Assembly (NCBI RefSeq): GCF_000317205.1
Contig: NZ_AJLK01000188.1
Coordinates: forward strand, 1-33,212
DNA: 33,212 bases
Source: Fischerella muscicola PCC 7414
Lineage (GTDB): Bacteria; Cyanobacteriota; Cyanobacteriia; Cyanobacteriales; Nostocaceae
Direction: 5' to 3'
Positions 18,772 to 28,173 of the stretch are shown in pieces. Made by a program: the position numbers and the translations under genes. The notes under the pieces were generated by a model, which saw nothing but the letters and a program-made list of their open reading frames with translations, searched no databases and was not told the DNA's origin. Within the stretch, counting starts at the first letter, position 1, and every line of letters begins with the position of its first letter.

Positions 18772-19752
18772 ATGAGATTTTACAGACATTTAGCTACTGT
18801 TGTATTAGCAATAGCTACAGTAATAGCGATCGCATTTATTCATACATTTGCTTTTGCACTTCCAGAACACGAGGTCGATGCGATCGCGTCCCAGACTACC
18901 GTATTAATTGCACCAGCCTTACAAGAAGGAGAGATAAAGGCACGCAGGGAGTGGGACCCAGGTTCTGGGGTGGTTGTAGCACGAAAAGGTAAAACTTATT
19001 ACGCACTCACAGCCCTCCATGTTGTGCAAAACAAAGGGTTTTATGGAGTACGCACGAGTGATGGCAAAGTACACTTAGTAGAACATAACGAAGATAATTC
19101 CACGATTCAAGCTTTAGGTAGGGAAGAGGGAGAACTCAGAACAAAAGTTAAGGGTTTTGATTTAGCACTGGTCAAATTTGAGAGTGAACACGACTATCCC
19201 GTTGCTGCTTTGGGAAATTCCGAGAAACTTAGGAGCAAAGATGTATTATATGTTTCTGGTTGGCCCGTACCGCAAAATCAAACTCCTCGCCGAGAACGGG
19301 TTACAGAAGTCACATCATTAAATCAAATTAATTCTCAACCTCATCCTGAAGGCGGCTATAGTTTAGCTTATAACATTCAAACCCGGCAGGGTATGGATGG
19401 CGGCCCAGTATTTAGTCAAGATGGACAAATTGTTGCTATCCACCAAAGCGATCGCTCAAATGAACATGGATATTGTCTTGAGCCAAATCTGAGCGGGAAT
19501 AATAGTTGTGGTCTGCAAATAAATCATATTGTACAAGCGATCGAAGCAGAGGACAGGCGCTTGAGTTTTGATCGCGGCTTGATAGATCCCAAAGTGATTG
19601 CACAGGGAATAGCAAATAAATCAACAGCAGATGTCATTCCCAATGTGTACAAGTTGTTTACCTTTGATTTAGATGCAATGTTGAGAAATAAGCCTTCTTT
19701 AGGATGTGGCAGTTTATTACTAGGAGATAAATGTCCCAACAGGCGTATATAG
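18772..19752 (+). CDS. Secreted trypsin-like pseudoprotease (catalytic Ser replaced by Asp)
   Basis: A 326-residue exported protein with an S1/trypsin fold. The signal peptide is RFYRHLATVVLAIATVIAIA and on to about AFA (residue 27). Catalytic-triad positions are H83 (YALTALHVV) and D130 (GFDLALVKF). The nucleophile position reads GMDGGP in place of GMSGGP, with codon GAT at 19396-19398, so residue 209 is Asp. A peptidase without that Ser should be inactive. The oxyanion-loop glycines are kept, which suggests a binding role or a dominant partner of the two active-looking paralogues downstream. A C-terminal tail of about 70 residues ends in Cys pairs (LGCGSLLLGDKCP). The ATG at 18772 has an AGGGG site 8 bases upstream, which rules out the GTG at 18763. 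Confidence 0.85.
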   Translation: MRFYRHLATVVLAIATVIAIAFIHTFAFALPEHEVDAIASQTTVLIAPALQEGEIKARREWDPGSGVVVARKGKTYYALTALHVVQNKGFYGVRTSDGKVHLVEHNEDNSTIQALGREEGELRTKVKGFDLALVKFESEHDYPVAALGNSEKLRSKDVLYVSGWPVPQNQTPRRERVTEVTSLNQINSQPHPEGGYSLAYNIQTRQGMDGGPVFSQDGQIVAIHQSDRSNEHGYCLEPNLSGNNSCGLQINHIVQAIEAEDRRLSFDRGLIDPKVIAQGIANKSTADVIPNVYKLFTFDLDAMLRNKPSLGCGSLLLGDKCPNRRI

Positions 19753-20013
19753 GGAGTATTCAAGGATAGGTTTTCTAGATTTTGCTTACATTCAGTTTAC
19801 TGTAAGTGGACTTGAACTCTGAGCCATGAAGTTCAGTTCTGGGCGGAATATCTGCTCAGGTGAGACTTGACTTGATTTTATTAAGAAAAATAACAAAAAC
19901 AAATGCTTTTCCGAAAATAAGACTCATCAATCTGGATTTATACTGAAAAATATAATATATATGCATTTTCTTTTAAAAAATCTTATATCTTATATATTTA
20001 CATCAGGTGTGAA

Positions 20014-20595
20014 ATGAACATGAAATTGAGTTTATTTGTCCAAGTCCTGAGTGCAATAGCAATCACACTAAGTTCTACTGCAATTAATGTTCAACCCAGC
20101 TATGCTCAAAAAAGTAAATTTTTCTGTGGTATGAGCAGGGGTAATCCAGCAACCATCGTTAACACCGATAGGGGCAATAAACCAATAATTAGCTGGGTTG
20201 ATACGGCTTTCCCGCCACCTTGGACGCCTTGGCAACGCTGTGAGGCAATATCTGATCGGTTTAATCGATTTTATGAAAACGGTACACTGAAGTTTATCAG
20301 AGCGGGAGAACTTAAGCATCAACCTGTGTTGTGTGTTGCTAGTTATAGTGGTGGGCCTTGTTTGCCTAATGGGGTATTAGTCACTCTTAAACCAGGAACA
20401 AACCCCCAGCTGATTCTATATCGGTTGCTGAATAAATCGGTTGGTGGTGGTGGCAGAATCATTGAACTCACAGACAACAATAACAATGTGATTTCCAATG
20501 TCGATAATGCCTCCTATCTTGATGTCCAAAAGCTGATCGGTGAGGAAAGTGAATTAGGACAATGCCCATCGGGAACACCTATGTGGGAATGTTGA
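20014..20595 (+). CDS. COP23-domain secreted protein
   Basis: A 193-residue exported protein of the COP23 (circadian oscillating polypeptide) family, found in cyanobacteria. The signal peptide is about residues 1-31, ending PSYAQ. The domain shows FFCGMSRGNPATIVNTDRGN and IISWVDTAFPPPWTPWQRC. It continues with EAISDRFNRFYENGTLKFI and PVLCVASYSGGPCLPNGVLV. Six cysteines remain in the mature part, including the GQCPSGTPMWEC end, so disulfides are likely. Function is unknown. It ends only 22 bp before a trypsin-like protease gene, so the two are very likely cotranscribed. The ATG at 20014 was chosen; ATG 20020 is also possible. Confidence 0.85.
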   Translation: MNMKLSLFVQVLSAIAITLSSTAINVQPSYAQKSKFFCGMSRGNPATIVNTDRGNKPIISWVDTAFPPPWTPWQRCEAISDRFNRFYENGTLKFIRAGELKHQPVLCVASYSGGPCLPNGVLVTLKPGTNPQLILYRLLNKSVGGGGRIIELTDNNNNVISNVDNASYLDVQKLIGEESELGQCPSGTPMWEC

Positions 20596-20617
20596 GGAAA
20601 TCGTAAGGTAAACCAAC

Positions 20618-21481
20618 ATGGATTGGCGCTTATTAACTATGGTTGCCTGTATTGGGGGTTTATCAATTTTGTTACCAGTATTAGCACCACTAAGTTCTAA
20701 AGTTATAGTTGAACAACCCTCAAGTCAAGGTTCGACAAAGGAACTACAGCATTTAGCTCAGTCCATTACAGTCAAGATACTTGCGGGAGGCTTTTTAGGT
20801 TCAGGGATTCTGATTAAAGAACAAGGTTCTGTTTATACTGTAGTTACTAATGCCCACGTGCTTATTTCGGGAGATCCTCCCTATAGAATTCAAACGCCCG
20901 ATGGTCATGTGTATAAAGCAAAACTTCCCAATCAAGTACAGAAAGTGGATGCTACTTCTTTGAGGAGCAAAGATTTAGCGATTTTACAGTTTTACAGTCC
21001 TAGTACCAGATATACTGTAGCATCCCTTGGCTCGGCATCAAGTTTGACTGTGGGGAATCAAGTGTTTGCTGCCGGATTTCCATTTAATGTTGAGGGAACC
21101 CAGGATGTAGGTTTTGTTTTCAAAGCAGGTAAGGTTTCCTGGGTTTTAGACAAAGCCTTAGAAGGTGGCTATCGTATCGGATATACCAATGATATTCAAA
21201 AGGGTATGAGTGGGGGGCCCTTACTAAATCAGCAAGGAAAGGTAGTGGCTATTAATGGAATACATGCGGAACCTCTGTGGGGCGAGCCTTATACTTATCA
21301 AGATGGAACCGAGCCAGAAGCATCCCTACGAAAACGAATGAGTAAATATAGCTGGGGTATTCCGATTGAAACGTTTGTGGAATTAGTGTCACCATCTTTG
21401 ATAGATTGTGACTCCAGATTTTCATTCACACAAAAATGCGATCGCAAGCTAGTAGTTTATCGCATTGATGATGAAAGGTAA
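20618..21481 (+). CDS. Secreted trypsin-like serine protease
   Basis: A 287-residue S1-family peptidase with an N-terminal signal or anchor segment (LLTMVACIGGLSILLPVLAP). The triad is complete: H80 in VVTNAHVL, D119 in SKDLAILQF and S198 in KGMSGGPLL. ITVKILAGGFLGSGILI at the start and KYSWGIPIETF at the end are typical of the family. It lacks PDZ or TPR domains. It lies 22 bp after the COP23 gene on the same strand, suggesting a two-gene operon; COP23 could be a substrate, inhibitor or partner (inference). A C-terminal tail carries a Cys pair (IDCDSRFSFTQKCD) similar in position to that of the upstream pseudoprotease. Confidence 0.88.
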   Translation: MDWRLLTMVACIGGLSILLPVLAPLSSKVIVEQPSSQGSTKELQHLAQSITVKILAGGFLGSGILIKEQGSVYTVVTNAHVLISGDPPYRIQTPDGHVYKAKLPNQVQKVDATSLRSKDLAILQFYSPSTRYTVASLGSASSLTVGNQVFAAGFPFNVEGTQDVGFVFKAGKVSWVLDKALEGGYRIGYTNDIQKGMSGGPLLNQQGKVVAINGIHAEPLWGEPYTYQDGTEPEASLRKRMSKYSWGIPIETFVELVSPSLIDCDSRFSFTQKCDRKLVVYRIDDER

Positions 21482-21559
21482 ATTGGCGTTGCATATTTGC
21501 AGGATGATTTTATTTTCTCTGGTAACTATAAAATTATTTCTTGGCGTTTTTGGCGTCTT

Positions 21560-21642
21560 GGTGAGTCCACTTGCCGCTCTTGGCGGTCTCCGTCACGTAG
21601 GCAAGGTGGCGTAGATCAAGGTAAGAGTACCCGGAGGGCGGT
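21560..21642 (-). repeat. Interspersed mosaic repeat, inverted copy
   Basis: Reads GGTGAGTCCAC, GGCGGTCTCCGTCACGTAGG, then AAGGTAAGAGTACCCGGAGG. This is the reverse complement, with differences, of the copy inside the next protease gene (GTCTACGTGACGGAGACCGC) and of the 3' part of the longest copy. Confidence 0.7.
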
Positions 21643-21690
21643 TTATTCTTCATCCCCATTTTATGCAACGCCGGTAAATTTGTTCTTAGT

Positions 21691-21739
21691 GAGGACTTTA
21701 GTCCTCTGAAATTATTTAAAATTTAAGCACTAAAGTGCT
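21691..21739. repeat. Double-hairpin repeat GAGGACTTTAGTCCTC / AGCACTAAAGTGCT
   Basis: Two short perfect hairpins (21691-21706, arms of 7; 21726-21739, arms of 6) are joined by an AT-rich linker containing TTTAAAATTT. This looks like a small palindromic intergenic element, not a terminator, since there is no T run. Confidence 0.6.
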
Positions 21740-21793
21740 GACTACAAACCTTCCCGATTCCCAATCCCCAATCACCTATCCCCCTTTTTAGGT

Positions 21794-23599
21794 ATGAAGT
21801 GTTCTTATGCTCTTCCGGCAGCGCTATTTGGTGTAGCCATTGTATTCATACAGCCTCAAATCACCGTAGCATTATCTCCCAAACAGGTTAGTGATATTGC
21901 TAAACAATTTACCGTTCGCATAGATGGAGAAGGTATTGGCTCAGGGATAATTTTTGAACGCAAGGGGGATAGATATTTTGTTCTCACTAATCGCCATGTT
22001 GTTTATAAAGATGGGAGATACGAAATTCTTGCCCCCGATGGCGATCGCTATCCAGTTTACTATAGCCAAGAATTGCCCGGTTTGGATTTAGCAGTATTAG
22101 AGTTTATCAGTCCAAAAGATTACAGTACTGCCAAGTTTGGTAACTCTGATCAATTAACAGAGGGAATGACTGTTTATGCAGTGGGTTGGGCTAAAATACC
22201 AGGTTTGGATCAACCCACTTACCAGTTTACTAAGGGAGACATTCGCAGTCGTTTGCAAAAACCAGATGAAGGTTATGCCCTAGTTTATGACAACGAGGCA
22301 ATACCAGGAATGAGTGGGGGCCCTTTACTCGATGAAAATGGTTTGGTAGTAGGTATTAATGGGCGAGCCACGGTTCCTGATGGTTCCACAGGAACTGTTT
22401 TGCGATTGGGAATTCCTATCAATATATTTGTAGCTACCAAAGGCAATTTGAGAACGCTAACAATCACCCAACAACCACCAATAACCCTTCGGGTTCGCCA
22501 GTCCCCCTACCCTTACCTTAAGCCACTTCGTGTCTACGTGACGGAGACCGCTTTTTGGGGGGCTGGTCTCACCAACACTCAACAACCACCAACAACAACC
22601 AGCAACCAACAACCAACAACCAACCATCAACAAATAACCACCAACACCCAAAAACAACCAACAACCAACCATCAACAAACAACTACTAAAAAACAACCAA
22701 GTGCCGAAAGTTTGATCAGTTTAGGTGGAGCTAAAGCTCAAAAAGGAGACTATCAAGGAGCTATTGCCGCCTATGAAGAAGCTTTACAGATTAATCCGAG
22801 TCATCCTGATGCTTACTTTCAAAGGGCTGTCGCTTACTACGATCTCAAGAATTATCAAGCAGCATTTGAGGATTTAAACCAAGTAGTTCGCCTAACTCCT
22901 AATAGTCCTGTTGCTTACATGAACCGGGGTTTAACTCAGGATCTCCTCCAAAGAAATCAGGAAGCTCTTAAAGATTACAGTAAAGCTATTAGCCTTAATC
23001 CTAATTATGCAGCAGCTTACTTAAACCGAGGAGCTATCAAAAATGAACTCCAAGACTATCAAGGAGGACTATCTGATTTAAATCAAGCAATTAACCTCAA
23101 AGCTGACTATGCTCTTGCTTACTTAAATCGGGGTGATTCCTACATTGGTCTTAAAGATTATAAAAGAGCGATCGCTGATTTAGAAGAGGCTATTAGACTT
23201 CAACCTAACAATGCTCTTGCTTACTCCAGAAGGGGTTTTGCCTATAGACAACTCCAGGAGTATAAAAAAGCAGCTTTGGATTACAATATGGCGATCGGCA
23301 TCCAACCAGACTTCGCCTCTGCCTATTTTGGTAGGGCTTTTGTCCGTCGCAGACTGCAAGATGATCAAGGCGCCCTTGCCGATTACAGCAAGATAATTAG
23401 TATCACTCCAGAATTTGCAGAAGCTTACTACAATCGTGGTCTGATTTACCGGGATTTAGGAGATAATAAAAAAGCTATTGTAGATTTTCAAAAAGCGGCT
23501 AGCTTATATCAACAACAAGGAAAAAGCGAATATTACCAAGACGCTATTCAAAGAATTAGAGAACTACAAACTAAGAGGTTATTTATAAAGTCAAAATAA
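21794..23599 (+). CDS. Secreted trypsin-like protease with eight TPR repeats
   Basis: A 601-residue exported protein. A signal peptide (about residues 1-26) is followed by an S1 domain (about 30-225) with a full triad: H68 in VLTNRHVV, D98 in GLDLAVLEF, S174 in GMSGGPLL. A repeat-derived linker (about 228-300) is rich in Gln, Thr, Pro and Asn. Eight TPRs fill about 303-590 (units such as AYLNRGDSYIGLKDYKRAIA). Within the linker, codons for PPITLRVRQSPYPYLKPLR and the next 17 residues come from a copy of the interspersed mosaic element, and TNHQQ-type codons from a CAACAAC array, all in frame. The TPR part should bind partner proteins outside the cytoplasm. It is the third protease of the cluster. 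Confidence 0.9.
   Translation: MKCSYALPAALFGVAIVFIQPQITVALSPKQVSDIAKQFTVRIDGEGIGSGIIFERKGDRYFVLTNRHVVYKDGRYEILAPDGDRYPVYYSQELPGLDLAVLEFISPKDYSTAKFGNSDQLTEGMTVYAVGWAKIPGLDQPTYQFTKGDIRSRLQKPDEGYALVYDNEAIPGMSGGPLLDENGLVVGINGRATVPDGSTGTVLRLGIPINIFVATKGNLRTLTITQQPPITLRVRQSPYPYLKPLRVYVTETAFWGAGLTNTQQPPTTTSNQQPTTNHQQITTNTQKQPTTNHQQTTTKKQPSAESLISLGGAKAQKGDYQGAIAAYEEALQINPSHPDAYFQRAVAYYDLKNYQAAFEDLNQVVRLTPNSPVAYMNRGLTQDLLQRNQEALKDYSKAISLNPNYAAAYLNRGAIKNELQDYQGGLSDLNQAINLKADYALAYLNRGDSYIGLKDYKRAIADLEEAIRLQPNNALAYSRRGFAYRQLQEYKKAALDYNMAIGIQPDFASAYFGRAFVRRRLQDDQGALADYSKIISITPEFAEAYYNRGLIYRDLGDNKKAIVDFQKAASLYQQQGKSEYYQDAIQRIRELQTKRLFIKSK
22483..22573 (+). repeat. Interspersed mosaic repeat inserted in frame in a protease gene
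   Basis: From AACCCTTCGGGTT (a 5-bp hairpin) through CCTACCCTTACCTTAAGCC and GTCTACGTGACGGAGACCGC to GGGGGGCTGGTCTCACC. Modules match the copy at 14816-15131 (CCTTACCTTAAGCC; GTGTCTACGTGACGGGAACC; TTTTTGGGGGGCTGG). It has no stop codon in the used frame. A CAACAACCA-type array follows to about 22698. Confidence 0.85.
22574..22698 (+). repeat. CAACAACC/AACCATCAAC array inside the protease linker
   Basis: Tandem A/C-rich units (CAACAACCAACAACCAACC, ATCAACAAAT and so on) encode the Gln/Thr/Asn/Pro linker between the protease and the TPR region. The same units occur in non-coding spacers, for example before the GT2 gene near 15171-15190. Confidence 0.7.
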
Positions 23600-23749: not shown

Positions 23750-25171
23750 CTAATAAATTGTTAACGAATTAATCATTGTTTGGGCTATTTCTAAATATTT
23801 GTCATATTCACTTTCTTCTGCTGTATAAGTAATTATGTAGACTTGATTATTTTTTAAAGTCCAAATTGTCAACCTTTTAATATTATATCCTTCTTCTTTG
23901 CCACTATAAATTACTTCATGAGCAGGTAAATTTGATAGTTTAGTAGGATGGGAATCATGAATTCTAGCATTATTCAGAAATTGGACTATTTCATTAACAG
24001 ACAAATTTGTATATTCCACTAAAGAAGTAGGTTCTTTCAAATTTTCAACATTGATATTTACCTCTGCTGTCAATTTATTGGTGCTACCTCTTGAGCGTGG
24101 CCAAAATTTAACTACATCTCCGGTAAATGGATCTCCTATTTGTTGAAGCTTCCAAGATTGCGGATATTTTATCCTCACGCTATAGCTAGGATTCTCATAA
24201 ATGGAGAATTCTATATCTGCTGGTGAATATTGCTCTTGTGGGTTGAATATTTGTATAATTTGTGGAGTTGCCAAAACTGCTATAAATAAAATGCTAGCAA
24301 GTAGTAATAATGGTTTCGCAAATTTTTTGCTTAGTCTCCACTTTTTAGTACTCTTGATATCTGCAATAGCTTGTAAAACTTCACTTGCAGATTGGTAGCG
24401 ATCGCGAAAGTCATAACTTACCATTCTGTCTAAAATATCTATGAGCTGAGGTTTAATATGTTTAATATTGATCAAACCTCGCCAAAGAATTTTATTAGTA
24501 TCGGGATGTCTTGGTAGGTGATCAGGCAAAATGCCTGTAAGAGCTTGGATAGCAATTAACCCTACAGCATAAATATCACTATTAAATTTTGGTTGCCCAC
24601 TATTTTGTTCACACGGCATATAACCAGGAGTACCAATAGCAATTGTTTTTCCTTGCAAGTTGGCAGCCAAGGCACTAATTTGTTTAACTGCTCCAAAATC
24701 AATTAAAACTAACTTATTGTCAGTAGCACGTCTGATTAAATTAGCAGGTTTAATATCCCGGTGGATAACATTTTGCTGATGGACATACTTGAGTATATTT
24801 AATACGTCCTCTAAAAAGTCGATGACTTTTTCTTCACTCCATTTGCTACCCGTTTTTAGTTCTAGGTTAAGAACATTACCTTCTATAAATTCCTGAACTA
24901 AATAAAAATCTTCATTTTCCTGAAAATGGGCTAAAAGTCTTGGTATTTGCTCGTGGTTGCCTAATTGGTAAAGAACTTGCGCTTCCTGCTCAAATAAACG
25001 TTTAGCCGTCTGTAAAATAAACGGATCGGTAGACTTGGGTTTGAGCCGCTTGACTACGCAATAAGGATTACCAGGTAAATCCTTATCTTTAGCCAGATAA
25101 GTCTCAGCAAACCATCCTTTTCCTAATTCTTTAATGATTTCGTAGCGCCCTCGGAGGGTTGTTCCTAACAT
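23750..25171 (-). CDS. Membrane Ser/Thr protein kinase with PsbP-like sensor domain
   Basis: A 473-residue PknB-type eukaryotic-like kinase. The kinase domain covers residues 10-270, with a glycine loop GKGWFAETY (18-26), Lys41 in CVVKRL, Glu61, HRDIKPAN (137-144), DFG at 158-160 and GTPGYMPCEQ as the activation-segment end. A single TM helix lies at about 286-306. The C-terminal extracytoplasmic domain (about 318-473) starts FSIYENPSYSVRIKYPQSWK and resembles the PsbP/DUF1795-like fold. The YPQSW strand and the final helix YLEIAQTMINSL are typical, but that assignment is less sure. The kinase should sense something outside the cytoplasm and phosphorylate cytoplasmic targets. The gene is convergent with the protease cluster. 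Confidence 0.88.
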   Translation of the reverse strand: MLGTTLRGRYEIIKELGKGWFAETYLAKDKDLPGNPYCVVKRLKPKSTDPFILQTAKRLFEQEAQVLYQLGNHEQIPRLLAHFQENEDFYLVQEFIEGNVLNLELKTGSKWSEEKVIDFLEDVLNILKYVHQQNVIHRDIKPANLIRRATDNKLVLIDFGAVKQISALAANLQGKTIAIGTPGYMPCEQNSGQPKFNSDIYAVGLIAIQALTGILPDHLPRHPDTNKILWRGLINIKHIKPQLIDILDRMVSYDFRDRYQSASEVLQAIADIKSTKKWRLSKKFAKPLLLLASILFIAVLATPQIIQIFNPQEQYSPADIEFSIYENPSYSVRIKYPQSWKLQQIGDPFTGDVVKFWPRSRGSTNKLTAEVNINVENLKEPTSLVEYTNLSVNEIVQFLNNARIHDSHPTKLSNLPAHEVIYSGKEEGYNIKRLTIWTLKNNQVYIITYTAEESEYDKYLEIAQTMINSLTIY

Positions 25172-26007
25172 TCATTTGATCCAGGGTTTACACATCTTCT
25201 GGTTTGAAAAGAGGGAATAGGGAGTGAAGAAAGGTCATTTTCATGCTTTTTTCTGGGACTCTCCTGTAAATGATTAGCTTGCCAACCAGTTAGTTTAGCT
25301 TTGACACATTATGATTTGCTAGTTTTAGCAGACGGCGGATGGTTATTTTTTCAACTAGGCAATATTCAAGTTCAATATGCGATCGCTGCTCAATTCTGAT
25401 ATATTACCTAATTTAGCAGAATTTATATAAGTCAAAAAAATGGGGTGTCATAGCTAACTAGATTTAACGCTTAATCTCCAATCACTTGAAAATTCAATTT
25501 GCTCCCTATCTCAACAAGTATATACTTAAACTTTCGTAATGTATAAATATAACCCAACAGGTTCACTCAAGCGATGATATTAGGCTGGGTAGAGCGCGAA
25601 CGTTACCCAACAAAGCGGTGAGAATGTTGGGTTTCGTTCCTCAACCCAACCTACACAAAATTAGGTTTTTGACTCTAACAGAACCTGATTGAAATATAAC
25701 CTCACAATTTATAGATGCACTAATTTATAACAAAATATGAAGCATTAACTGTTAGAAAAATGTTCGTATTTATACATTAATTTTACTAAAGCCATCTTGT
25801 ATAGAAAGATATCAACGATGTATAGTCATCCATAATAATCTGTCAAACGACATCTTAATATCAAGTTCAAATAATTAGCTGTTATTAACAACACAGCTAT
25901 AGCTGAGTAATGGAGATTGAACAAGTCCTTAACTCAGTAGCTCTTACCTTTTCTATAAAGTAAGAGTAAATTTTGAATTGCTTTTTTGTAGTGTGGGGTT
26001 TAACAAA
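25172..26007. other. Long non-coding gap upstream of the porin
   Basis: An 836-bp AT-rich region between divergent kinase and porin genes, with no accepted gene. It holds a hairpin-type repeat near 25575-25652, with GTTGGGTT at 25626-25633 pairing with AACCCAAC at 25643-25650 and a further TGGGTA/TACCCA pair at about 25586-25608. A CTCTTAC/GTAAGAG inverted repeat (25941-25966) lies about 40 bases before the porin start and could act in its leader. A 40-codon frame ending near 25398 might be a gene relic but cannot be identified. Confidence 0.5.
25941..25966 (+). promoter_or_regulatory. Leader hairpin before porin gene
   Basis: CTCTTAC (25941-25947) pairs with GTAAGAG (25960-25966). Inner CTTT/AAAG pairing extends the stem with a bulge. 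It ends 41 bases before the porin ATG at 26008, so it probably lies in the 5' untranslated region. Its function is unknown. Confidence 0.35.
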
Positions 26008-28173
26008 ATGATAGGAAAAAAATATTTACTTCTGAGTGGTGCTTCAGCAATTTTGTTGTTTCTATCAATAACTACGGCTGAAGCTGTTGAACAGCCAATA
26101 CTAGAAGAAGATACTCTACAATCTACTCACACAAATGTAGCTCAATTAAGTAAAAAAGAATTATTTCCTTCAAAGAAAAAACAAAGAGGAAATTCCTTTG
26201 ATTGGATAGAACAAAATACTACTCTGCAATCAGATTTAAATGATGCAGAACAATCAAAAAACCGGATGGCTGATGTTTCCCAACTAAAAGATGACGGCAA
26301 TACGCCAACAGACAGCATCGAACAAGTGACATCGGTGTCCCAATTATCGGATGTGCGACCAACTGATTGGGCTTTTGCTGCATTGCAATCTCTTGTAGAA
26401 CGGTATGGCGTAATTGCTGGTTATCCAGATGGCACCTTCCGAGGCAATCGTCCGATGACTCGCTACGAATTTGCTGCGGGATTAAATGCAGCCTTGGACA
26501 AGATTAATGAACTTACTGCTGCTGGTGCAGAAGATAAAGTTCGTAAAGAGGATTTAATAACACTGCAAAAACTACAAGAAGAGTTTGCCACGGAATTAGC
26601 AACATTACGAGGTCGTGTTGATACTCTAGAAGCGCATACAGCAGAACTAGAAGCGAATCAATTCTCGACAACTACAGTACTTGGGGGAGAAGTAATTTTT
26701 GCAGTGTCGTCTGCTTTTGGGGGTGATCCACCGGGAGGGTGTAGAATCTTCCCTGATGATCAGGGGTACTTTTTCGACACATTAACTGGTGGGAGAGGTC
26801 CTGGAGACCGTAATGATGATGATGAGGTTGACTGTGGAAATAGAAAAGAAGCATCAAGAAACACTGTTTTCTCTCACCTAACACGCCTCGGATTACAAAC
26901 TTCATTTACTGGTAAAGACGTTTTAAGAACTTATCTAACTACTGGTGATTTTGATAACGGTGGTTTTACAAATCCCGAGTCACTTAATACCTATATGGCT
27001 CGGTTTTCTCACCAAGCAGGATTAAATAACCAGGTTTTCTTAGACTTACTGGAATATCGATTTCCTGCTTTTAATGACAAAGTTGTATTCTCTGTTATTC
27101 CCTTTGGGTTTGAGTTAAGCAGTGTTCTCAGTGCTAATTCTCCATACTTTGATACAGGTAGAGGTTCAATTTCCCGTTTTGGACAACTCAATCCAATTTT
27201 AAGAATAGGCGGGCCAATGGATGCTGGGGTAGGTTTTGATTGGACAATTGCCGATCCTCTCAGGTTACAAGTTGCCTATGGTACTAGAAATAGTAGTGAC
27301 ACAGAAACAGGATTTATCGGTGCAGACCACAGTGCCCTTGGTGTACAGTTAGTGGTGAAACCTACTGAAAGGATTCTGACAGGCATATCTTACGTAAATG
27401 CCTATTCCAGTGATGGCTCTTTAGGAACATATACTGGTAGCGTTAACGCTGAAACTGCTGGTTTGTGGTCTGGTTCATCGATTCCCAGTGATGAATTTAA
27501 TAGTCCAGGAGTCCCTTTGGAACAACAGCTGAACGCTCCATCTGGCTTTGGTCCGTGTTGTGGTAATTATATTGGAGATTTACCAGCACAAATAAATGCT
27601 GTTGGTGGTAGCTTCCAATGGCGCGTAACAGATCAACTAACTTTGGGAGCATGGGGAGGTTACATGTTCACCAATTTCTTGGAAGCGCTCCCTAATGATA
27701 GTGTATTGGGTGACTCTGCTGGTAAAAAGCCTTATGGTACTTCTGCTACATACTTGTTTTCTGTGGGAATTTCAGATCCATTTGGTAGGGAAGGCGATTT
27801 ATTTGGTTTCCTGTTTGGAATGCCACCAAAATTAGTGTCTGCGGGGCCTGAAACAGATGGTACGCCAGTACCATTTTTTGAACAAGTAGTCAGAGAAGAA
27901 GAAGCGACTCCGGTAACAGATAATAATGATAACCTCAACACCAATTCAGAATTCACCACCGATGGACAGCGAACTGAAGATCCAGGTGTATTACCTAAAA
28001 AAGTGGGAGTTAAAGATAAAGCGACTTCCCTACACTTTGAAGTTTTCTACCGCTTTAGAGTAAGTGATAACGTCTGGATTACACCTGGCTTTTTCGTGGT
28101 TACAAATCCAGGGCATATTGCTGATAACGACACGATTTTCGTCGGTACTCTCCGCACAACCTTCCGCTTTTAA
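26008..28173 (+). CDS. SLH-domain OprB-type outer-membrane porin (iron uptake porin family)
   Basis: A 721-residue outer-membrane protein. The signal peptide is about residues 1-26 (IGKKYLLLSGASAILLFLSI to AEA). A linker is followed by an SLH domain at about 110-165 (DVRPTDWAFAALQSLVERYG, VIAGYPDGTFRGNRPMTRYE) that anchors to peptidoglycan. A coiled coil (about 180-215, LQKLQEEFATELATLRGRVD) and an OprB-like beta-barrel ending in Phe (TLRTTFRF) follow. This is the usual architecture of cyanobacterial SomA/iron-uptake porins. An early barrel loop carries two Cys and an acidic NDDDEVD stretch; GPCCGN occurs later. The ATG at 26008 was chosen; the TTG at 25978 would put ten residues before a good signal peptide. 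The exact solute is not readable. Confidence 0.88.
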   Translation: MIGKKYLLLSGASAILLFLSITTAEAVEQPILEEDTLQSTHTNVAQLSKKELFPSKKKQRGNSFDWIEQNTTLQSDLNDAEQSKNRMADVSQLKDDGNTPTDSIEQVTSVSQLSDVRPTDWAFAALQSLVERYGVIAGYPDGTFRGNRPMTRYEFAAGLNAALDKINELTAAGAEDKVRKEDLITLQKLQEEFATELATLRGRVDTLEAHTAELEANQFSTTTVLGGEVIFAVSSAFGGDPPGGCRIFPDDQGYFFDTLTGGRGPGDRNDDDEVDCGNRKEASRNTVFSHLTRLGLQTSFTGKDVLRTYLTTGDFDNGGFTNPESLNTYMARFSHQAGLNNQVFLDLLEYRFPAFNDKVVFSVIPFGFELSSVLSANSPYFDTGRGSISRFGQLNPILRIGGPMDAGVGFDWTIADPLRLQVAYGTRNSSDTETGFIGADHSALGVQLVVKPTERILTGISYVNAYSSDGSLGTYTGSVNAETAGLWSGSSIPSDEFNSPGVPLEQQLNAPSGFGPCCGNYIGDLPAQINAVGGSFQWRVTDQLTLGAWGGYMFTNFLEALPNDSVLGDSAGKKPYGTSATYLFSVGISDPFGREGDLFGFLFGMPPKLVSAGPETDGTPVPFFEQVVREEEATPVTDNNDNLNTNSEFTTDGQRTEDPGVLPKKVGVKDKATSLHFEVFYRFRVSDNVWITPGFFVVTNPGHIADNDTIFVGTLRTTFRF

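Follow-up and report, generated by a model that had tools for sequence, protein, structure and literature searches.

A COP23 protein as a possible detached accessory module of exported S1 proteases in Cyanobacteria

Why should a gene for a COP23 protein lie within a run of trypsin-like (S1) protease genes? We address this question in Fischerella muscicola PCC 7414, using as our window an entire 33,212-bp contig (NZ_AJLK01000188.1) from its 6.9-Mb genome. An earlier note, made from the letters of this DNA alone, had described three trypsin-like proteins and one COP23 protein on one strand and had proposed that they work together outside the cytoplasm. Pfam agrees with this composition, returning three Trypsin_2 proteins and one PF14218 protein. 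We find that COP23 genes adjoin S1 genes in many cyanobacterial genomes and that the two domains are sometimes fused. We propose, with about an even chance of being correct, that COP23 acts in trans as the detached accessory domain of a dedicated and exported S1 protease, here called slot 1. The four genes are as follows.

18772 to 19752, plus strand: pseudoprotease; Trypsin_2 (Pfam, E = 1.6e-18), catalytic Ser replaced by Asp (GMDGGP), hydrophobic N terminus, conserved C-terminal PSLGCGSLLLGDKC module.
20014 to 20595, plus strand: COP23 protein; PF14218 (Pfam, E = 8.2e-32), N-terminal signal-like segment, four conserved Cys, C-terminal CPSGTPMWEC tail.
20618 to 21481, plus strand: small S1 protease, slot 1; Trypsin_2 (E = 7.8e-24), catalytic triad intact, directly downstream of COP23.
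21794 to 23599, plus strand: S1 protease with eight C-terminal TPRs, slot 2; Trypsin_2 (Pfam, E = 3.7e-23) and TPR.

The COP23 match covers positions 1 to 132 of the 138 in PF14218 and scores 110 bits against a cut-off of 27. The gap between COP23 and slot 1 measures 22 bp, the spacing given in the earlier note, and a custom repeat profile counts the same eight TPRs in slot 2 that had been described (Pfam also detects TPRs there). All four proteins, the three proteases and COP23, have a hydrophobic N-terminal segment in a simple hydropathy scan. The earlier claim of N-terminal signals or anchors is thereby upheld for the segments, from which secretion of the four proteins is predicted. The window slot-1 protease is 91-92% identical to genes from Westiellopsis and Fischerella.

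Adjacency of COP23 and S1 genes recurs across the class. Among 145 sampled cyanobacterial genomes, COP23 was matched in 95 and Trypsin_2 in all 145. The 143 listed regions around COP23 matches, together with the window, gave 150 COP23 open reading frames (ORFs) with our own profile, representing 92 of the 95 genomes with a match; COP23 matches outside these regions were left out. A same-strand S1 gene lies no more than 500 bp from 47 of the 150, against a chance expectation of 0.07 at typical Trypsin_2 density and 0.17 at the highest density. The nearest linked S1 gene is downstream of COP23 in 40 cases, at a median gap of 17.5 bp, and upstream in seven. These 47 COP23s, one of which is a domain within a fusion protein (L171), are spread over 30 of the 92 genomes and 13 GTDB families, so that the adjacency raised in the earlier note is indeed kept in other genomes. 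The window's own genome holds four such clusters: half of its eight COP23 genes have an S1 gene directly downstream, and 7 of its 18 Trypsin_2 genes sit in COP23-S1 clusters.

The same association is seen from the side of the protease. An alignment of slot-1 proteases, used as bait in a genome search, recovered 211 stretches with a relative, of which the best 80 were kept (the named loci). Within this clade, COP23 is found in the fetched flanks of 74 of the 80 slot-1 relatives; in 70 by reading, or 71 by a looser script rule, it is the gene just before the matched protease. A slightly wider linkage rule in the class-wide sample gave 44 COP23 genes with S1 downstream, and the His, Asp, and Ser columns are invariant in all 44 of these S1 proteins, window slot 1 included. 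Slot 1 is thus predicted, from its intact triad with GxSGG, to be an active-looking protease. We built a FastTree phylogeny of 160 S1 domains, which covers the class-wide loci plus 27 named loci (the other 53 of the 80 were left out). It contains one group, with modest local support (81), in which 66 of 68 rows directly follow COP23; window slot 1 falls inside it, and slot-2 proteases, many of them with TPRs, fall apart from it. A distinct group of S1 proteins (384-399 amino acids, GNSGG) occurs upstream of COP23 in members of the family (L101, L106, L112, and L143).

Domain exchanges between these proteins are the best evidence for a possible accessory role of COP23 toward S1 proteases. The C-terminal arm of slot 2 varies, being TPR, a Pilin_GH-like domain (L274), or COP23. 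Oscillatoriales cyanobacterium USR001 (L276) encodes both an S1-COP23 protein of 374 amino acids and an S1-COP23-COP23 protein of 518 amino acids, and L171 encodes an S1-COP23 protein of 432 amino acids. All three fusions are confirmed by Pfam, and L276 and L171 lie on separate branches of the tree, which makes two lineages. At both loci the COP23 domain occupies the position of the TPR arm; separate, detached TPR proteins occur at L207 and L102. A joint COP23-S1 system is therefore strongly supported on genetic grounds, by the conserved linkage, the four clusters in one genome, and the fusions.

We suggest that COP23 would form a complex with the slot-1 protease and control or aim its activity, in the way that PDZ or TPR arms act in cis. 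Slot 2 bears an arm of its own, usually TPR but replaced in certain species by COP23 or by a pilin-like domain, and might broaden or scaffold that activity. The obvious comparison is with HtrA/Deg proteases, S1 enzymes that can also bear a C-terminal arm. HtrA/Deg proteins form trimers or higher oligomers and combine chaperone and protease activity. Among the best 60 of 101 profile matches in solved structures, the slot-1-family S1 domain is closest to DegQ/DegP-type proteases, and DegP, DegQ, DegS, and cyanobacterial HhoA are among these best matches. The likeness ends at the arm: Pfam finds no PDZ domain in the three window proteases (E ≤ 0.001), and here TPRs or a stand-alone COP23 protein form the arm.

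The COP23 protein itself is compact and conserved. Its four Cys are invariant in an alignment of 30 sequences, and an AlphaFold2 (AF2) model of the window protein, built from 49 sequences, has a mean predicted local distance difference test score (pLDDT) of 75, with 82 residues at 90 or above and a confident core of EEE-H-EEE-H-EE-H. When solved structures were searched by sequence, no relative of COP23 emerged, the sole match having E = 0.5. Foldseek matches to sliding clamps were rejected at template modeling (TM) scores of about 0.1-0.2.

Many COP23 proteins also end in a distinctive way. A Trp is the final residue in 28 of 118 operon COP23s and 30 of 1781 other ORFs, often as -PLW or -xW after a Pro/Ser-rich linker, and a Trp is among the last four residues in 51 of the 118 and 99 of the 1781 (related species not thinned). 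Such tails also end some S1 and TPR proteins in COP23 operons; examples on COP23 or S1 proteins come from L100, L108, L274, L292, L295, L304, L318, and others. Downstream Trp tails occur in 10 of 28 operons whose COP23 has a Trp tail and in 5 of 90 whose COP23 lacks one (P = 0.0002; relatedness ignored). The Trp tail may be an unrecognized sorting or binding motif. We gave up a model in which the Trp tail of COP23 is bound by the TPR arm: in a side-by-side, nonstatistical comparison, Trp tails occur without a TPR slot 2 and TPR arms without Trp tails.

The first gene of the cluster adds an inactive partner in one sublineage. Its ORF spans 18763/18772-19752, and orthologues that open with similar MxFY residues favor the ATG start at 18772. 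Where slot 1 and slot 2 have GMSGGP, this protein has GMDGGP (Asp codon GAT, 19396-19398), which matches the earlier prediction of one dead homologue; it keeps the His (CAT, 19018-19020) and the catalytic Asp. L242-L248 (Westiellopsis, two Fischerella, Brasilonema, Chlorogloeopsis, Goleter, and Tolypothrix) share this arrangement of four genes, in which an inactive S1 homologue comes first, ahead of COP23, and slot-2 orthologues again follow slot 1. A search of 217 genomes of the window's family matched 11 at E ≤ 1e-70, the window's own included. We counted 11 distinct pseudoprotease sequences (the window, L242-L248, L324, L329, and L330); further GMDG[GA]P sequences (L322, L323, and L325-L328), probably from the same species as some of L242-L247, were not counted.

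The catalytic Ser is replaced by Asp in all 11. Six have also lost the His, to Gly (L245 and L324), Ser (L246), Arg (L247), or Asp (L329 and L330), and the catalytic Asp has become Asn in L247 and L329. Sequencing error is ruled out as the source of the Ser-to-Asp change, since the codon is GAT in all eight aligned genomes. The median ratio of nonsynonymous to synonymous substitution rates (dN/dS; 28 pairs from eight genomes) is 0.19 for both the pseudoprotease and COP23, with slot 2 at 0.18 and slot 1 at 0.26; the pseudoprotease thus resembles its neighbors. COP23 was not seen in the short flanks of L329 and L330. A further match, L331, has an active-looking GMSGG and sits beside a second S1 gene and COP23. 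Active-looking members of the pseudoprotease clade (L208, L215, L217, and L229-L233) have GMSGG. The pseudoprotease is thus real and conserved, as read from these alignments, and the inactive partner suggested in the earlier note stands for this one sublineage only. There, an inactive S1 homologue from a clade genetically tied to the OprB porin would have been added as a binding or competing subunit, with the porin as a putative client.

The gap between slot 1 and slot 2 in the window is 312 bp, against −22 to 45 bp in L242-L248. A 21-nt inverted repeat, 95% complementary, pairs 21583-21603 in this gap with 22531-22551, in frame within the slot-2 linker, which suggests copies of one repeat element.

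The earlier boundary of 18772-23599 proved too narrow. Two further genes, both overlooked before, recur in relatives.

23750 to 25171, minus strand, convergent with the cluster: Ser/Thr kinase (Pfam) with a transmembrane segment and a PsbP-like C-terminal domain.
25978 to 28173, plus strand: SLH-OprB porin (Pfam), tied to the pseudoprotease clade.

Kin of the kinase occur in 47 of the 80 named loci, with 49 matches in all. Of these matches, 41 lie beyond the operon on the other strand. Another four (L311, L314, L319, and L320) form tail-to-tail overlaps with a slot-1 gene, and the gap has a median of 155 bp across the 49. At those four loci, the flanks are free of COP23, and the slot-1 gene overlaps the convergent PsbP-like Ser/Thr kinase gene by 8-44 bp. 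In the class-wide sample, the kinase is near 13 of 45 linked and 6 of 99 unlinked COP23 loci (Fisher P = 0.0004; relatedness ignored). OprB kin occur at all 16 pseudoprotease-clade loci but at only 3 of 221 other loci (fetched flanks), and for seven of the eight active-looking clade members OprB is directly downstream on the same strand. The spacing from clade S1 gene to OprB at L208, L215, and L229-L233 runs from overlap up to 228 bp. The COP23-protease module thus appears to extend to a recurring kinase and porin. The membrane kinase, with its ectodomain, is a possible sensor or responder.

Several observations weigh against COP23 as a dedicated protease module. As many as 103 of the 150 COP23 genes are unlinked to S1, so that the joint system of the earlier note does not extend to all COP23s, and the DGG[TS] motif of a longer subfamily is present in 72 of these 103 and in none of the 47 linked COP23s. 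COP23 was not seen in the fetched flanks of 6 of the 80 slot-1 loci, and the bait behind these loci was built from COP23-linked proteases, so the 74 of 80 describes that clade and not all S1 proteases. The N-terminal hydrophobic segment is not universal: no more than 32 of the 44 linked COP23s and 33 of the 44 slot-1 proteins pass the threshold, compared with 358 of 1185 ORFs of at least 200 amino acids in the same scan; export of both proteins is thus likely across linked loci, though not necessarily for every member. COP23 has no Foldseek match at E ≤ 0.001 in the PDB (best E = 0.26) or BFVD (best E = 0.11), so that none of the inhibitor or binding domains there matches its fold significantly. 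In AF2, a natural S1-COP23 fusion gives two confident domains whose mutual orientation is not fixed (predicted TM score, 0.60), and we therefore make no claim of docking. Finally, the kinase is near only those 13 of 45 class-wide linked loci, and a PsbP-like end is present in five of the 13. The longer COP23 subfamily (e.g., L090, from the window's own genome) often ends in LRPFLDPADGGTG...LNPDNFR-like residues.

Could COP23 instead be a cognate inhibitor, an immunity-like protein that holds the exported protease off until its activity is required, with its Trp tail or a Cys-bounded loop entering the active site? COP23 is small, is encoded upstream in the same cluster, and has four conserved Cys, and the frequency of Trp among its last four residues would suit such a role. 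However, Trp tails also end some of the proteases and TPR proteins of these operons, which ill suits an inhibitor motif. An inhibitor could be permanently fused to the C terminus of a protease whose GMSGG is intact, but this is less expected, and the COP23 fold matched nothing at a significant level. We consider an inhibitor unlikely.

Alternatively, the S1 proteins, some of them as chaperones, might survey outer-membrane porins such as OprB, which would be their client, with the pseudoprotease retaining a chaperone role only. The constant company of OprB and the pseudoprotease clade, the direct downstream position of the porin for most active-looking members, and the DegQ/DegP-type S1 domain are all consistent with quality control of this kind. 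Yet OprB is nearly absent from other loci, so that quality control explains the pseudoprotease branch only, and in the window the porin lies 6.2 kb from the pseudoprotease. As an account of the system, it is quite unlikely.

COP23 might also be a substrate that the protease matures or degrades, for example in a membrane and with a daily rhythm. COP23 was reportedly described in 1996, in Synechococcus RF-1. The passages on COP23 in two papers (PMC6315102 and PMC11131595) trace the founding protein to that strain and present COP23 as an oscillating or diel membrane protein, or as highly transcribed, with a function given as unknown or as presumably membrane-related. The first relates that in UCYN-A a COP23 gene changes more dramatically between day and night than any other gene (PMC6315102), and the second that a COP23 homologue is the most highly expressed gene in a diatom endosymbiont (PMC11131595). 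An oscillating membrane protein would suit a substrate, although these descriptions do not imply the protease-linked subfamily. The protease-COP23 fusions in two lineages, with COP23 in the TPR position, are a better fit to a stable partner and favor an accessory or regulatory module over a substrate, which we regard as distinctly improbable.

That the gene order reflects common descent or selfish operon spread without any cooperation is highly improbable: many of the loci are closely related and neighboring genes duplicate together, but bacterial gene order usually decays over family-level distances, and the linkage spans 13 GTDB families, with fusions on two separate branches of the tree.

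An accessory role for COP23 would be new for the family to which the window gene belongs (PF14218), insofar as the passages in those accounts name no protease partner (PMC6315102 and PMC11131595), and titles, abstract openings, and passages of the openly licensed PMC literature yielded no link between COP23 and a protease. A passage in PMC6315102 has COP23 detected only in N2-fixing cyanobacteria, whereas our matches come from 95 of 145 genomes, a count in which N2 fixation was not considered. Other systems offer partial parallels. As described in part of PMC7159879, Trypco1 and Trypco2 of the VMAP ternary conflict systems are small families that likewise co-occur with trypsin-like peptidase genes; they belong to vWA-MoxR systems, whereas window COP23 matched PF14218 only, and Pfam found no vWA, MoxR, or VMAP partner in the ten window proteins scanned. 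Pseudo-orthocaspases, in a passage of PMC6426788, are presumably inactive protease homologues in cyanobacteria; they belong to another protease family, and here the inactive S1 adjoins active-looking S1 proteins and COP23.

The overall interpretation given in the earlier note is partly supported. Going further, we tentatively raise the possibility that the short, protease-linked COP23 is an obligate partner in an exported protease pathway. In this scheme, the S1 enzyme paired with COP23, a second S1 with its own arm and, in one lineage, the pseudoprotease would set free or hold back a signal that the membrane kinase senses, perhaps on a daily schedule; its circadian element draws on COP23 in general and not on a particular subfamily. 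Because loci of this kind are found in the isolates Fischerella sp. PCC 9431 and Chlorogloeopsis fritschii PCC 6912, experiments are possible.

These results provide a concrete functional lead for COP23, a family present in most of the cyanobacterial genomes sampled. They also point to a protease architecture in which the accessory arm would be a separate gene that is sometimes fused to the enzyme, and they offer a natural series of catalytic-site decay within one conserved pseudoprotease.

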